Position numbers and translations under genes: made by a program | Source: Verrucomicrobiota bacterium JB022 | Lineage (GTDB): Bacteria > Verrucomicrobiota > Verrucomicrobiia > Opitutales > Oceanipulchritudinaceae | DNA: 64,000 nt | Assembly (NCBI GenBank): GCA_030673845.1 | Contig: JAUTCQ010000006.1 | Location: 124,001-188,000, forward strand | Direction of reading: 5' to 3' | The notes under the pieces: model-generated | What the model saw: only the letters and a program-made list of their open reading frames with translations | What the model was told of the DNA's origin: nothing | Databases searched by the model: none | In this document: positions 54,793-61,137 of the stretch, one piece after another | Layout: every line of letters begins with the position of its first letter | How positions within the stretch are numbered: the stretch's first letter is position 1

Positions 54793-54800
54793 CTAAGAAG

Positions 54801-54923
54801 GGGGCTCTCACCAAGGACACCAAGACACCAAGGGATAAAGCCGAGAAAAGTGTTCTTTAGCTGATACAAAGAAACGTCATTTTTATCATTTCTTTGTGCC
54901 TTTGTGTTCTTGGTGAGAGACTC
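54801..54923. repeat. CACCAAG-family intergenic inverted repeat, copy B
   Basis: ctctcaccaaggacaccaag at the left pairs with gtgttcttggtgagagactc at the right around an AT-rich middle. The same arms are in copies A and C. The right end is 14 nt past the stop of the MFS gene on the minus strand. Confidence 0.82.
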
Positions 54924-54936
54924 CATTGTCTCCCCC

Positions 54937-56157
54937 CTATCGCACGACATCCACTACCGGCTTTGGGCGGAAGGGAACGATAAGGGCGAGGGCGGCGAGG
55001 GTGATGCCGGCGCAGACGACAAACGCGCCTTGGTGGCCGACGGCTTCCACGATAAACCCGAAGGTGAACATGCCGATGAGGCTGCCGAGCGCTTGTGCGT
55101 TGGAAAAGACGGAGGTGGCGAGGCCGACCTGCCGGGGCATCAGGTCCTGGAAAAAGAGGATCGCGACGTTGGTCAGGATGGCGAATGCGGCACCGCTGAG
55201 CACTTGCAGCAGGTAGACGTGCCAGGGCGCGGAGGCGAAGCTGAGGCCCACGAAATACGCCAGCGTGATGCCGACGCCCAGCTTGATCAGCGGTAGTTGG
55301 TAGCCTTTGCCTGCCAAGTGGCCAAACCACAGCATAAGCGGGATTTCCACCACCGGGCCGATGCCGAAGACGATCCCGAAGTCACGCTCGCTGCCGCCCA
55401 GGCTGCGGGTCAGGGCGAGCGGGAGGTTCATCATGTTGATCGCGTTGGCGGCAAAGACGACCGCAAACACCACAAAGCACCGCAACAGGCTCGGGTGCTT
55501 CAAGTTACGCCATACTGCACCGGGCGGCGGCTTCTGGGTGGGCTTGATCCGCTCCCGGTGAGGCACGTAGCGCAACACGCCCAGCAGGAAAAAACCGTAG
55601 AGGCACGAGGCGGCGATAAACAGCCCCTCGAACCCGAAATTGACCAGCATCAGCGCGCCCACCGCCGGCCCCACGGTCCACGAAAACGAGAAGCAGACGC
55701 GCACCACGCTCATGGTAAAGGTGGAGCTTTCGTTGGGCTTGCCGCCGCCCTGGTAGATCTCGCGCACGTGGGAGAAGAGCTGCGCGAAGCAGATCGACGC
55801 CAGCGCGTGCAGGCTGCAGCCGACGACCGCCAGCGCAATCGGTTCCCGGATCAGCGCGTAGCCGAGGAAGCCGAGACACCCGCCCAGGCTGCCCACGATC
55901 AGCATTTGTCGCCGCGAAAAAGCCGTGTCGGACAGGCCGCCGAGGATCACACTGGTGAGCATCGCGCTGACCGAGGTGAGCGTCATGAAGAGACTGAACC
56001 CGGTGGGCGACATCCCCACCTCCTCCAGCCCCCACTTCGACATGAAGGGCGCGGCGAACGAAAACGCGGTGCCCAGCGCAAAGGTAGACGCCAAGAGCCC
56101 GGGCAGGTAGGGCTGGCGCAGGAGATTACGGGTGACGGGGACGAGGCGGCCAAGCAT
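54937..56157 (-). CDS. MFS transporter, sugar-efflux (SET)-like
   Basis: This 406-residue membrane protein has twelve hydrophobic segments. Motif A-like GGLSDTAFSRRQMLIVGSLGG (~75-95) joins helices 2 and 3, and a comparable loop sits in the second half. The whole resembles the SET efflux group that exports sugars or glycosides. Together with the GH2 and GH97 enzymes nearby it could import or export sugars, but the direction is not deducible. Start at ATG 56157. Confidence 0.86.
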   Translation of the reverse strand: MLGRLVPVTRNLLRQPYLPGLLASTFALGTAFSFAAPFMSKWGLEEVGMSPTGFSLFMTLTSVSAMLTSVILGGLSDTAFSRRQMLIVGSLGGCLGFLGYALIREPIALAVVGCSLHALASICFAQLFSHVREIYQGGGKPNESSTFTMSVVRVCFSFSWTVGPAVGALMLVNFGFEGLFIAASCLYGFFLLGVLRYVPHRERIKPTQKPPPGAVWRNLKHPSLLRCFVVFAVVFAANAINMMNLPLALTRSLGGSERDFGIVFGIGPVVEIPLMLWFGHLAGKGYQLPLIKLGVGITLAYFVGLSFASAPWHVYLLQVLSGAAFAILTNVAILFFQDLMPRQVGLATSVFSNAQALGSLIGMFTFGFIVEAVGHQGAFVVCAGITLAALALIVPFRPKPVVDVVR

Positions 56158-56330: not shown

Positions 56331-56350
56331 GAATACGTATACACGTGTTC
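56331..56350 (+). promoter_or_regulatory. Palindromic GAA...TTC element upstream of the micro-ORF cassette
   Basis: gaatacgtatacacgtgttc is an imperfect palindrome matching its own reverse complement at 16 of 20 positions. It ends 4 nt before the ATG at 56354. A related element, gaattcgtatacacgttc, lies 5 nt before the unrelated gene at 61277. A shared regulator is the simplest explanation. Confidence 0.5.
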
Positions 56351-56353
56351 ACT

Positions 56354-56776
56354 ATGAGTGAAGCAGCCATGAATCCTTCCGTCCTTTCCTATCGTTCCAC
56401 GGCTGGCTTGCTGCGTCGGGCGGCGCGGGAGCCGTTGAGCCATGAGCGGGCGGGGGCGATGTTGGGGATTGCGGCCGAGGAGGCGGCATTTGCGTTGGAG
56501 GAGACGGGGCGGCACGACCCGGCGGTGGAGGCTGCCACGCTGGCCTGCAGCGCACTGGCGCGGGGGGAATTGACGCCGATCACCCTCGAGCGGTTGATCC
56601 TGCGGCTGGCGGACGTGATCGAGAGCCTCAAGCAGGAGCGCCGTATCCAGGGCTTTGTGCCGCAGAATTTTTATACCAAAGACGAGCTGGAGGGCTTCTT
56701 CCGTCCGCCAGAGGAGGTGACGCCGCCCAGCCCTTCGCGACCGCCGGTCTTTCGGGTGCTGCCTCCTGCGCCTTAG
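56354..56776 (+). CDS. Small helical protein at the start of a plus-strand cassette, unknown
   Basis: This 140-residue protein is mainly helical (YRSTAGLLRRAAREPLSHE at the start, then ERAGAMLGIAAEEAAFAL) with a Pro-rich tail (VTPPSPSRPPVFRVL). No signal peptide. It starts at the ATG 4 nt after a palindromic element; a second in-frame ATG, giving MNPSVLSYRS, lies 5 codons later. It ends overlapping the convergent RHH gene by 4 nt. I do not recognise the family. Confidence 0.58.
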   Translation: MSEAAMNPSVLSYRSTAGLLRRAAREPLSHERAGAMLGIAAEEAAFALEETGRHDPAVEAATLACSALARGELTPITLERLILRLADVIESLKQERRIQGFVPQNFYTKDELEGFFRPPEEVTPPSPSRPPVFRVLPPAP

Positions 56777-57081
56777 CCTAAGCGCTTGCGCCGCTCGTGC
56801 ACGGCAGGGGTGCCTTCGGGCAGGGGGGCTCCCGTGCCGGGTTTCTTGCCGCTCTTCTTCAAGGGGGGCAGGGTGACGCTCGGCAGGCCCGCTGCGTAGT
56901 CCGGGTAAATATCGCTGCCGCGCCCCGAGGTATACGCCTCCACATATTGCTCTAGCAGGGCGTTGACCACGTTGGAGCGGGTGCGCCGGGTGCGGGTGCA
57001 GATCTCGTCCAGGCGCTCCGCCACTGCGGTCGGGATGCGCACGGAGAGCTGCGTCGTCGGTTCCGCGTCTTTCTTCGGCAT
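56773..57081 (-). CDS. Ribbon-helix-helix (CopG-type) DNA-binding protein
   Basis: This 102-residue protein has a ribbon-helix-helix domain (residues ~10-50): the strand TTQLSVRIPTAVAERLDEIC, then TRRTRSNVVNALLEQYVEAY. The C-terminal half is Lys/Pro/Arg-rich (LKKSGKKPGTGAPLPEG). CopG-type proteins repress their own operons or act as antitoxins. It is divergent from the plus-strand micro-genes from 57150 and probably controls them. The 4-nt overlap with 56776 is between convergent gene ends. Confidence 0.83.
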   Translation of the reverse strand: MPKKDAEPTTQLSVRIPTAVAERLDEICTRTRRTRSNVVNALLEQYVEAYTSGRGSDIYPDYAAGLPSVTLPPLKKSGKKPGTGAPLPEGTPAVHERRKRLG

Positions 57082-57090
57082 GTAGGGCAG

Positions 57091-57099
57091 TGTAATACA
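57091..57099. promoter_or_regulatory. Small palindrome between divergent RHH and 57150 genes
   Basis: tgtaataca (TGTA-A-TACA) is a perfect palindrome in the 68-nt divergent gap, a size typical of RHH half-site pairs. Evidence is weak because short palindromes occur by chance. Confidence 0.2.
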
Positions 57100-57149
57100 G
57101 TAAATTTAAAATGCGACAAATTACTTGAATCCCTCCGACAGCTTTGGAT

Positions 57150-57395
57150 ATGGTTTATTTGTCATACAAAATAACGCTAAAAGATGTTGCTGATGATTCC
57201 GGACGGCCCGAAGTGGTACTGACCGTTCACTTGCCGACGAAGCTCTACGCCCAACTCGCGGTGCTGGCGCACCTGCGCGATCAAGACGTGGCGGCCTTCA
57301 TTTCTTCTGTGTTACAAAAAAACCAAATAAATACGGGCCTGATGCCCGCCCCCGCTTCTTTTCCACCTTCTACTGATTCCAACGATGAACCGTAA
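57150..57395 (+). CDS. Small RHH-like protein
   Basis: This 81-residue protein starts MVYLSYKITLKDVADDSG. Residues ~20-54 (VVLTVHLPTKLYAQLAVLA and RDQDVAAFISSVLQK) resemble a ribbon-helix-helix fold. The tail is Pro/Ser-rich. The start is the ATG at 57150; a TTG at 57144 would add two residues. It is divergent from the larger RHH gene and overlaps the next gene by 11 nt. Confidence 0.58.
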   Translation: MVYLSYKITLKDVADDSGRPEVVLTVHLPTKLYAQLAVLAHLRDQDVAAFISSVLQKNQINTGLMPAPASFPPSTDSNDEP

Positions 57396-57672
57396 TCACT
57401 TTCTCCGCGGGCTGGCCGAGCAGGCCCGCAAGCCCGATACCAGCCAGTGCGGCGACCGCAGCGTAGGCGAAACCTTGACCGCGATCGAGGCGATCCTGCG
57501 CCGCAACCTCCACCGCTTGCACCTGCTACCCTTGCCGGAGCCGACGGTGCCCGTGCTTGAGCCCGAACCCGACACGCCGCGTCCCCTGACCCAGGCGGGG
57601 TTTCGCGACGCGGACGAGGTGCGCCTCGCGATGATACGCATGCGCAACCGCCTGCAGAACGCCGAACGCTAG
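57385..57672 (+). CDS. Micro-ORF cassette gene, unknown
   Basis: This 95-residue protein is helical and charged (FLRGLAEQARKPDTSQ, then VGETLTAIEAILRRNLHRLH), with a Pro/Glu linker and a C-terminal helix (EVRLAMIRMRNRLQNAER). The ATG at 57385 is inside the last codons of the previous gene, so translation is coupled. No signal peptide or known domain. Confidence 0.6.
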   Translation: MNRNHFLRGLAEQARKPDTSQCGDRSVGETLTAIEAILRRNLHRLHLLPLPEPTVPVLEPEPDTPRPLTQAGFRDADEVRLAMIRMRNRLQNAER

Positions 57673-57678
57673 GCCGCC

Positions 57679-57858
57679 ATGCTCTACCGTTTCCGTAACC
57701 CCGAGGCCCCTTGGGTCTCCGAAGGCATCTCGGCGCGTGACTGGCGGGCCCGGCAGCACCGCCAACGCCTGCCGCGTGAGCGCGCCCGGCCGGCTCCGCG
57801 CCATTACGCCCCGATCACCGACTGGATCGAGCTGCGCGAAAAGGAGGAGCAGCGATGA
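57679..57858 (+). CDS. Micro-ORF cassette gene, 59 residues
   Basis: This 59-residue protein starts MLYRFRNPEAPWVSEG and is rich in Arg, Pro and Trp (ARDWRARQHRQRLPRERAR). Its stop TGA overlaps the next ATG as ATGA (57855-57858), the same arrangement as at 58740. A ggaggag ribosome site just before that overlap serves the next gene. It is very short but keeps the same strand, spacing and composition as its neighbours. Confidence 0.6.
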   Translation: MLYRFRNPEAPWVSEGISARDWRARQHRQRLPRERARPAPRHYAPITDWIELREKEEQR

Positions 57859-58271
57859 CGCCGCTCGTCTACCTCGCCGGTCCGGAAGCCGAGGGCGATC
57901 CGGCGCTCAATGCACACGGCCAGCTCCGTCTCGCGCACGAGTTGTTCGAGACGGGGCTGGCGCAGGGCTACGCGCCCACCCACGCCTATTGGCTGCAGGC
58001 TGCGCAACCGCGTGCGCCGGGTTATTGGGCGGCCTGGCATGAGGCGATGCTCGGGCAGTGTGCGGCGGTGCTCCGGCACGATGTCGACTGTCGGCTGCCG
58101 GGCTTGCCGTATTTCCAGCCGGCGGGCGAAGAGGCGGCCTTGGCCTGTGCCCGGGCGCGCAACCTCGGCCTGCCCGTCTTCTCCCACCTTTCCGCGCTGC
58201 TCGCCTGGGCAGAGCTGCCGGCGGGTGCGCAGCGCGATGCCTATGCCGCCCGTTTTGCGCGTACTGCCTGA
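57855..58271 (+). CDS. DUF1937/DUF4406-like protein
   Basis: This 138-residue protein starts MTPLVYLAGPEAEGDPALN, the Y-L-A-G-P signature of DUF1937/DUF4406 nucleoside-deoxyribosyltransferase-fold proteins that are common in phages and plasmids. The middle has GYAPTHAYWLQAAQPRAPGYW and ends ARFART. Catalytic residues of true deoxyribosyltransferases are not clearly present. It lies in a block of tiny overlapping genes. Confidence 0.7.
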   Translation: MTPLVYLAGPEAEGDPALNAHGQLRLAHELFETGLAQGYAPTHAYWLQAAQPRAPGYWAAWHEAMLGQCAAVLRHDVDCRLPGLPYFQPAGEEAALACARARNLGLPVFSHLSALLAWAELPAGAQRDAYAARFARTA

Positions 58272-58290
58272 TCACTTTGCTTCAACCACC

Positions 58291-58743
58291 ATGATCGACC
58301 TCATCTCCGGCATCCCCTCCGAAGTCCTTACCGGGCTCGGGAGTGCCATCGTCGGTGCCTGGACCAAGCTCCAGGCCCAGAAACATGCGCAGCAACAGTT
58401 TACGCTGGAGCTGCTGGCCCGCCAGACGGGTCTCGCCGATGCCTCCGCCAACGCCGCGCAGGCGCGTGGGGGCGAATGGGTGCGCCGGGGCGTCGCGCTG
58501 CTCGCCGGGTTTTTCGTCTTCGGCGTGCCCAGTATTGTGGCGCTGGCCCAGCTGGCCGGCCATACGCCCCTGACCACCTACCTGTACAACAAGAGCAGCG
58601 GCGGCTTCTGGTTTTTCCGGGGGCCGAGCGACGACCTGTATTCGGCCGTCGTCACCGGCTATGTGATCACGCCGCTGCACACGCACCTGGCCAGCATGAT
58701 CATGTGCTACTACTTCGGCGCCGGGATCGTCAAAAAGCCATGA
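58291..58743 (+). CDS. Membrane protein of the micro-ORF cassette, holin-like
   Basis: This 150-residue protein has an N-terminal amphipathic region (MIDLISGIPSEVLTGLG, then AQKHAQQQFTLELLARQTG), a hydrophobic segment, RRGVALLAGFFVFGVPSIVALAQLAG (~69-92), and a second near GYVITPLHTHLASMIMCYYFGAGI (~123-146). The arrangement of one long helix, a short loop and two membrane helices resembles some phage holin-like proteins, but there is no direct match. Its stop overlaps the next start as ATGA. Confidence 0.62.
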   Translation: MIDLISGIPSEVLTGLGSAIVGAWTKLQAQKHAQQQFTLELLARQTGLADASANAAQARGGEWVRRGVALLAGFFVFGVPSIVALAQLAGHTPLTTYLYNKSSGGFWFFRGPSDDLYSAVVTGYVITPLHTHLASMIMCYYFGAGIVKKP

Positions 58744-58970
58744 GCCCGCCCCCGCTTCTCAACAAGGATACCGGCATCACCCTCGCGCTGGCGGTGGCGC
58801 TCTGTGGGGCGTGTTTCAGTGCCGGTATCTTTTATCAATCACATCAGGAACACGGCGCGGCGTTGCTGGAGCTGAAACAAATTGCCCGCACCAACAGCGA
58901 GTTGCTGGCCCGCCTGGACCTCCGCATCATCCGCCTTGAGCAACTCATCGAAGAACCGAAGCAGCGGTAG
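58740..58970 (+). CDS. Small membrane/coiled protein, end of cassette
   Basis: This 76-residue protein starts MSPPPLLNKDTGITLALAV. It has one membrane segment (ITLALAVALCGACFSAGIFY, ~13-32) and a coiled C-terminus (LLELKQIARTNSELLARLDL, then EQLIEEPKQR), similar in layout to phage spanin or small lysis proteins. It overlaps the previous stop. The gene ends just before the CACCAAG repeat copy C. Confidence 0.62.
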   Translation: MSPPPLLNKDTGITLALAVALCGACFSAGIFYQSHQEHGAALLELKQIARTNSELLARLDLRIIRLEQLIEEPKQR

Positions 58971-58980
58971 GGGAGAAAAG

Positions 58981-59112
58981 AGGTCTCTCACCAAGGTCAC
59001 CAAGACACCAAGTTTAAATATTTGGACTATACGCCCCTAAAGGAGAGGTTCAAATAGTGCTGCCACGTATCGACAACCAACCTCTGTGTCTTCGTGTTCT
59101 CCGTGAGAGATC
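58981..59112. repeat. CACCAAG-family intergenic inverted repeat, copy C
   Basis: ctctcaccaaggtcaccaag and the right arm tgtgtcttcgtgttctccgtgagagatc enclose a variable middle, as in copies A and B. The right end is 15 nt past the stop of the GH97 gene (minus strand, 59128). Confidence 0.8.
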
Positions 59113-59127: not shown

Positions 59128-61137
59128 TTATTCCTTCGGCGCCTTCACGATGGCGATGACGCCGCCGCGCGCCGGGATCGACTTGGGCAACGCGTCCATC
59201 GGTTCGACAAAGTTGCCGTCTTCATCGGCGGTGTAGACTTCGGCGGTCTTGAGGTTGCGCAGCCAGGGCAGGCGTGAGTAATCGAGCGGGGTGGCCTCTT
59301 CGCGGGCATTGACCCCGGCGAGGTACCACTTGTTACCGGCGCGGCGCGCAAGCACGGCGTATTCGCCCGGCTGGCCGTCGACAAAGCGCGTTTCGTCCCA
59401 CCGGCGAGGCAGCTCGCGCAACAGATTGCGGATGTATTCCGGCTGCTTCGCCATATCTACATCGGTCTCGGCAAAGTGCTGAATGCCGGAATAATAGAGG
59501 ACAGCGGTTGCGAGCTCGAAGTCTTTGCGCGTTCGCCGCTCGATATTCGGGATCTTCGAGAAGGCCATGGGCGTGAAGTCCATCGGGTCGAATACGTTGC
59601 GCGTAAACGGCAGCATGGCCATGTGCGCGGGCGCGGCATCGGCGTTGCTCTGTACAAAGGTGATGAATTCCATGCCCTTGACCGACTCCATCGTCATGAG
59701 GTTGGGGAAGGTGCGGTGCCAGCCGCGGGGGAGGGTGCAGCCATGGAAATTGACCAGTAGCTCGTATTCGGCCGCGTCCTGCAGGATGTCGCGGTAGTAT
59801 TGCATTACGGATTGGCCGTCGCCGGGGAAGAAGTCGATCTTGACGCCCTTGATGCCCATCTCCTGCAGGCGCGCAAACTCCTCACGGCGCTTCTCGTGGG
59901 TCAACAGGCGGCTTTTGGGGGTGTAGGGCGTCGTGTTCCAGTCGCCGGCGGAGTTGTACCAGGCCAACACGCCAACGCCTTTGCTGGTAGCATATCGGGC
60001 CAGCTCTTCCAATTTTTCATAGCCGATCTTTTCGTCCCAGCTCGCGTCGACGAGGCAGTAGTCCCAGTGCATCTCGGCTGCGTAGTCGATGAAGCGGCGT
60101 TGCACGTCGTAGACCGTCGCGTCGTCTTTCAGCATTACCCAGCTCCAACTGGCGTGGCCGGGGCGCATCCAGTTGCGGGTGGGGAAGCGTGCTGGCTCCG
60201 CCAAGTCGGTGCCGAGGTTGCTCTCGACGATGCCGCTGAGGTCGTTGGCGACCACCACGAGGCGCCACGGGGTGAGCCAGGGCAGCTTGGCGGTGGGCTT
60301 TACCGGGCCGCCCTTGACGGCTTCCGCCGCGTCGGGGAAGCCGATCCGGAATTCCCGGCCCGCCTCGTCTTGCGCGAGGTGGCTGGCGCAGTAGTGGCCG
60401 TCGACCGCAGCCTCCGAGAGCAGCACCCAGTGGCCGTTGGCGAGGAACAGGGCGGGGAAGACCCAGCCTTGGTAGGGGTAGGATTCGACGAGGTTGCCGT
60501 GCTCCTTGGCACGCTCGGCCTGCTGCTCCTGGAAGGGCTGCAAGGTGTCCAGCGCCACGCCGATCTGGTAATTCTCTTCGTAGGAGGGCTGCGTGTTCGA
60601 CCAGCCGGTCTGTGCCTTGGCCATCGGCTGGATCCACGCTTGGGTGTCTTCGGGGAAGACAAAGCCGGTGTGCTCCTGCTCGATCCGCCAGCGCTCTTCG
60701 CTCTCGCCGTGCAGGCGGTAGCGGAAGGCGAGGCCGTCGTTGGAGAGGCGGAAGATCACCTCCAGGCGCATGCCATTTTCGTGCTCCAGGCGCACGATCT
60801 GTTCCTCCGCTTCGTAGCGGATCTCGCGCTGTTTGCCGTGGTTGAGCGTGTATTCGTCCGTCACGTGGCGCGGCTCCGGCAGGCTCATGAGCAGGAAACC
60901 GTGCGTCAAGTCGGCCTGTGCGGAGGCGAGACCGAGGGGAGAGTCTTCAAGAATCGTCCGGCCGTTGCGTTCGAGCGAGTAGTGCGGCTGGCCGGCATCG
61001 TCGAGGTAGAAGTCCAGAGCCAGGTTGCCGTCGGGGCTATTCAGGATCATGGCGGCAGAGGCGAAGGGTAAGCCGAAGGCACCCAGGAGCGCCCAGCCCC
61101 AGGTCTTCAGGAGGTTCAGGGTAGTTTTCGGTAACAC
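59128..61137 (-). CDS. Secreted glycoside hydrolase family 97 protein
   Basis: This 669-residue GH97 enzyme has a signal peptide (residues 1-28), an N-terminal beta-sandwich with DFYLDDAGQPHYSLERNGRTI, a long linker region and a (beta/alpha)8 catalytic barrel (~275-570). It includes WDYCLVDASWDEKIGYEKL, GVKIDFFPGDGQSVMQYYRDI, the conserved NFHGCTLPRGWHRTFPNLMTMESV and a Ca2+-site region. The ID(F) Asp in VKIDFF occupies the nucleophile position of retaining GH97 members, so an alpha-galactosidase-type activity is possible. SusB-type alpha-glucosidases are the close alternative. It ends just before repeat copy C. Confidence 0.93.
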   Translation of the reverse strand: MLPKTTLNLLKTWGWALLGAFGLPFASAAMILNSPDGNLALDFYLDDAGQPHYSLERNGRTILEDSPLGLASAQADLTHGFLLMSLPEPRHVTDEYTLNHGKQREIRYEAEEQIVRLEHENGMRLEVIFRLSNDGLAFRYRLHGESEERWRIEQEHTGFVFPEDTQAWIQPMAKAQTGWSNTQPSYEENYQIGVALDTLQPFQEQQAERAKEHGNLVESYPYQGWVFPALFLANGHWVLLSEAAVDGHYCASHLAQDEAGREFRIGFPDAAEAVKGGPVKPTAKLPWLTPWRLVVVANDLSGIVESNLGTDLAEPARFPTRNWMRPGHASWSWVMLKDDATVYDVQRRFIDYAAEMHWDYCLVDASWDEKIGYEKLEELARYATSKGVGVLAWYNSAGDWNTTPYTPKSRLLTHEKRREEFARLQEMGIKGVKIDFFPGDGQSVMQYYRDILQDAAEYELLVNFHGCTLPRGWHRTFPNLMTMESVKGMEFITFVQSNADAAPAHMAMLPFTRNVFDPMDFTPMAFSKIPNIERRTRKDFELATAVLYYSGIQHFAETDVDMAKQPEYIRNLLRELPRRWDETRFVDGQPGEYAVLARRAGNKWYLAGVNAREEATPLDYSRLPWLRNLKTAEVYTADEDGNFVEPMDALPKSIPARGGVIAIVKAPKE

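Follow-up and report, generated by a model that had tools for sequence, protein, structure and literature searches.

Organization of the islet

The islet lies within a window of 64,000 nucleotides, the whole stretch of DNA that was analysed, on contig C6 of the draft genome of Verrucomicrobiota bacterium JB022 (G000; 4.35 Mb, 25 contigs). As shown in Table 1, eight small open reading frames, g1 to g8, are located between two genes that we take to encode an MFS transporter and a GH97-like protein. A sequence-only reading of this DNA had described six densely packed plus-strand genes between 57150 and 58970, in which neighbours overlap by 11 nt at 57385 and are joined by ATGA at 57855 and again at 58740; all of these positions were recovered when the coordinates were read again.

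Table 1. Features of the islet and its surroundings, and two genes of the prophage on contig C1. Positions are those of the window unless a contig is given.
Feature	Position	Strand	Description
Repeat B	54800..54924		imperfect hairpin, dispersed genomic repeat
MFS transporter gene	54937-56157	-	left of islet; presumed name
g1	56345..56776	+	small orphan ORF, 135-143 aa, islet boundary; weak coding signal
g2	56773..57081	-	divergent ribbon-helix-helix (RHH) regulator, 102 aa
g2-g3 intergenic	57082..57149		AT-rich, divergent; presumed promoter/operator, from sequence
g3	57150..57395	+	81 aa, ATG start; possibly RHH-like (sub-threshold)
g4	57385..57672	+	95 aa orphan; 11-nt overlap with g3
g5	57679..57858	+	59 aa orphan
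g6	57855..58271	+	138 aa orphan; ATGA junction with g5
g7	58291..58743	+	holin-like phage membrane protein, 150 aa
g8	58740..58970	+	76 aa; N-terminal TM and coiled coil; ATGA, start overlaps g7 stop
Repeat C	58981..59112		imperfect hairpin; dispersed genomic repeat beginning 10 nt downstream of g8
GH97-like gene	59128-61137	-	right of islet; presumed name
Tyrosine integrase	G000:C1:239362-240588		PHROG integrase, E=2e-26
g7 relative	G000:C1:240595-241035		last gene of the prophage, adjoins the integrase

Codon-usage log-odds were derived from 14 long ORFs in the window, and the annotated frame of each small gene was compared with the other five frames. The annotated frame was favoured for all eight ORFs, with a large margin for g2, g4, g5, g7 and g8 and a small margin for g1, g3 and g6. 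The GC3 of g3 was unusually low (0.52). There was no match to the sigma-70 consensus in the intergenic region between g2 and g3, and no tRNA was found in the window.

The RHH gene and the orphan genes

The product of g2 exceeded the Pfam cut-offs of 26 bits for RHH_5 and 20.5 bits for RHH_1, with scores of 26.7 and 25.4 bits, respectively, confirming the divergent RHH gene that had been proposed, and it weakly matched CopG/Arc-like repressors in PHROG. The product of g3 gave only sub-threshold RHH matches, to Pfam RHH_5 and to an Arc-like PHROG, with E=0.14 and 0.17, respectively. Apart from the generic RHH domain, g7 was the only gene of the islet for which clear relatives were found. The genes g1, g4, g5, g6 and g8 were orphans in every search made, and no homologue of g1, g3, g4, g5, g6 or g8 was detected in phages, so that a phage origin by sequence can be claimed for g7 only.

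Searches of 384 genomes of the class with g1 and g6 returned chance-level matches only, and inspection of the g6 matches showed that none of them shared the full-length ORF. Among 55 related genomes, g4 and g6 were not found beyond their own locus, save for one marginal match of 40 residues to g4. No relative of g6 was found in a scan of genome contigs or in a scan of viral contigs, and the whole cassette, used as a DNA query against plasmids and phages, gave no match. The sequence-only reading had likened g6 to DUF1937, and this assignment had to be dropped, as no Pfam family matched g6 even at E values as high as 10. The PF09152 model found nothing in genome G000, which also speaks against DUF1937. 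A structure model of g6 from its single sequence had a pLDDT of 42.7 and was unusable.

As an RHH regulator and a small membrane-active protein occur within one islet, the genes could form a small autonomous defence or toxin-antitoxin/abortive-infection operon with the holin as effector. This is very improbable, however, since no protein of the islet had a PADLOC match at E up to 0.1, g2, with 20.2 bits, fell far short of the 50 bits required by the NCBIfam antitoxin models, and a conserved toxin partner was not found. The blank PADLOC result also gave no support to the defence module that had been suggested earlier.

g7 belongs to a phage protein family

The g7 protein matched PHROG 38283 along most of its length (E=6e-11), although this PHROG itself carries no functional label. 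It was 72-73% identical to a prophage gene on contig C1 of the same genome. Relatives of g7 were found in 14 of the 55 related genomes by single-sequence search (15 by profile search), and in 25 sequenced phage records, two of which are from Puniceicoccales sp. IMCC8625. Of 600 candidate stretches taken from viral contigs, 578 encode such a relative. A scan of viral contigs with g7 as single query returned nothing, which reflects a limit of the pattern method. The holin-like membrane protein noticed at first thus does belong to a family of phage proteins, and the origin of g7 from a phage is firm.

The g7 protein has the transmembrane helix expected of a holin, with one strong TM segment starting at residue 66. 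A second helix was seen at residues 128-143 in a low-confidence model (40 sequences, pTM 0.26), in which only two helices were clear. No match to the curated holin models was found for g7 in Pfam or NCBIfam. Comparison of g7 with its relative on contig C1 gave a dN of 0.20 and a dS of 1.32 (NG86); the protein has therefore been constrained, and the purifying selection on this pair may have acted within phages.

Gene context of g7 and g8

The g8 protein has a TM segment at residue 10-11 followed by a coil-like tail, in agreement with the small membrane/coiled protein that had been placed at the end of the cassette. The same kind of arrangement was found in the lysis regions of Roseobacter phages CRP-5 and CRP-7, in which a relative of g7, with 32-33% identity over 95-97%, is directly followed by a TM/coiled-coil protein of about 80 aa. 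In CRP-5 (gp37-gp36-gp35) the order is a putative lytic transglycosylase, the g7 relative, which overlaps the stop of the transglycosylase gene by 1 nt, and a protein of 82 aa that has a single TM at its N-terminus and a tail in the form of a coiled coil; in CRP-7 the g7 relative has the same kind of follower. The g8 protein and its CRP-5 counterpart gave no sequence alignment, and the likeness is therefore claimed for position and topology only. Unlike CRP-5, the islet has no lytic transglycosylase directly upstream of g7 and carries the orphans g3 to g6 instead.

On contig L122, the order was an SLT transglycosylase (Pfam SLT, E=1e-21), a small coil/TM protein, a g7 relative, and a TM/coil protein. 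Relatives of g7 in both CRP-5 and L122 thus have a muralytic enzyme as neighbour, whereas g7 of the window does not. A holin-like gene followed by a gene for an N-terminal-TM/coil protein, like g7-g8, was also found at Mu-like clusters of Opitutales (L025 in genome G001, and viral contig L085). These pairs differ from that of the islet in that they share about 33% identity with it, belong to a distinct clade, and adjoin genes for a terminase and a Mu portal protein. Because of the gene context, namely the transglycosylase neighbour and the TM/coil follower of the relatives, g7-g8 is best read as a putative phage holin plus accessory protein, and a phage origin of g8 is likely.

Relation to the C1 prophage and to the Mu-like head cluster on C17

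An apparently complete siphophage-like prophage is located beside tRNA-Lys/tRNA-Thr at G000:C1:239362-262000 (L003 from 17363 onwards, and L004). Its tail, tape-measure and further head-type genes were recognised by eye from the translations. In contrast to the islet, the g7 relative of this prophage lies behind the tail genes and a putative lipoprotein of 100 aa, where it ends the prophage, and relatives of g1 to g6 or g8 are not present. In a maximum-likelihood tree, g7 of the window and the C1 gene formed one clade (support 100/99), and the g7 relatives of Mu-like head clusters formed a separate clade (96/98).

A Mu-like head cluster is present on contig C17 (G000:C17:44335-53018, from L183 12335 to L184 1018) and in G001 (L025 370-9211). 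The cluster contains genes for a terminase, a Mu portal protein (PF06074), a Mu-like protease and a major head protein. PF06074 was found in 27 of the 55 relatives, mostly in one copy, and all 51 named matches of the portal protein were from Verrucomicrobiota, many of them uncultured MAGs. The C17 cluster looks like a gene-transfer-agent-like element; a literature search found no description of such an element in Verrucomicrobiota.

The islet could serve as a trans-acting lysis module of the C17 cluster, which has no holin pair of its own, while that of G001 does. The head clusters of G000 and G001 are orthologous, with terminase and portal 91% identical and a dN/dS of about 0.09, although the MFS and GH97 proteins of the two genomes share only 72% and 64% identity; in G001 and in other relatives the cluster is immediately preceded by a g7 relative, which is missing at the G000 cluster; and in genome G046 the holin and the head cluster are on different contigs. 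We nevertheless regard this explanation as very improbable, because in the tree g7 of the window joins the gene of the C1 prophage rather than the holins of the clusters, and because most cluster-bearing relatives have no detectable relative of g7. The tree placement of g7 therefore argues against the islet being a displaced native holin locus of the C17 cluster. A further version, in which a holin pair captured from a prophage replaced the lost one and the islet now releases a domesticated, Verrucomicrobiota-wide Mu-like cluster in trans, is very improbable as well.

Ends of the islet and comparison with G001

Repeats B and C share direct copies of 35 nt that are 91% identical. The hairpin repeats that had been reported around the cassette do exist, but they do not bracket it tightly, as repeat B lies past the MFS gene. 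With up to 3 mismatches allowed, genome G000 contains at least 14 copies of the repeat arm CTCTCACCAAGGNCACCAAGACACCAAG. Repeats B and C thus belong to a repeat that is dispersed through the genome, and the att-like direct repeats that had been looked for at the islet ends were not found. One dispersed repeat arm is located at G000:C17:46191-46218, between the terminase and the portal gene of the C17 cluster.

No integrase, terminase, portal, endolysin or structural gene was identified between 56.2 and 59.1 kb from the ORFs, Pfam and PHROG. With neither an integrase nor att repeats nor structural or packaging genes, the islet is not a complete prophage or satellite. The sequence-only reading had left open whether the cassette is a phage remnant or an active small element; a remnant is the likelier of the two, and the absence of a mobility or replication gene speaks against an active element.

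In G001, the only other genome of the genus, there was no match to g1 to g6 or g8 in the regions compared. The MFS and GH97 proteins of G000 and G001 were 72% and 64% identical, respectively, and in G001 the two genes are on different contigs and not adjacent. The pattern that would have spoken against a phage element, with close relatives carrying the same genes in the same place and no phage homology, was not seen. Upstream of the MFS gene of G001 (C5, L046 9395-10128, minus strand) there is a different gene with a helix-turn-helix N-terminus, replication-protein-like by eye, so that the MFS locus may be a hot spot for accessory genes.

These observations could also be explained by plain decaying debris, left after deletion of a prophage and now without function. 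The lack of integrase, terminase, portal and endolysin genes, the absence of the cassette from the compared regions of G001, and the atypical base composition of g3 would all fit such debris. However, all ORFs are intact, their codon use is coding-like and the overlaps are kept. The low dN/dS of the g7 pair also speaks against debris, although that selection could date from a phage stage of both copies. Taken together, we consider plain debris rather unlikely.

Proposed origin and function

The islet is probably a lineage-specific, phage-derived lysis islet that came from a prophage of the C1 kind, either as a leftover or by exchange, and that faces an RHH regulator. That g3 to g6 come from the same phage as g7 can reasonably be inferred. 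Several points count against this reading. Phage homology was detected for g7 only, the intact ORFs with their tight overlaps are not typical of decaying debris, and the missing Pfam/NCBIfam holin label and the low-confidence model of g7 weigh against a holin.

In the proposed lysis islet, g7 and g8 would represent a holin and its accessory protein from the lysis module of a tailed phage, and they would stand last in a tightly packed operon of small orphans of phage type. Repression of this operon may come from the RHH protein g2, perhaps aided by g3, acting at the divergent promoter region. Upon release of repression, g7 would build up in the inner membrane and permeabilise it, and g8, translationally coupled to g7, may tune the timing or provide a link to the envelope. 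As an endolysin is absent from the islet, a muralytic enzyme would have to be supplied in trans for lysis to occur, and the C1 prophage is one possible source. Alternatively, the g7-g8 pair might merely depolarise the cell.

Prophage-derived lysis genes stranded in chromosomes are already known, and the islet, a putative lysis pair that lies in a bacterial chromosome with no other recognised part of its phage, is fairly ordinary of its kind, save that several of the neighbouring genes match nothing known. Its importance for the host itself is probably minor. From gene context and topology, a very common and so far unlabelled family of marine phage proteins gains a probable role as the holin of a lysis module. 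Members of this family are labelled 'peptidase M15' in Pelagibacter phage Skadi-4 (OP131301, 18794-19225) and in similar records; this label is probably a misannotation, since a Pfam peptidase hit was obtained for no family member tested.
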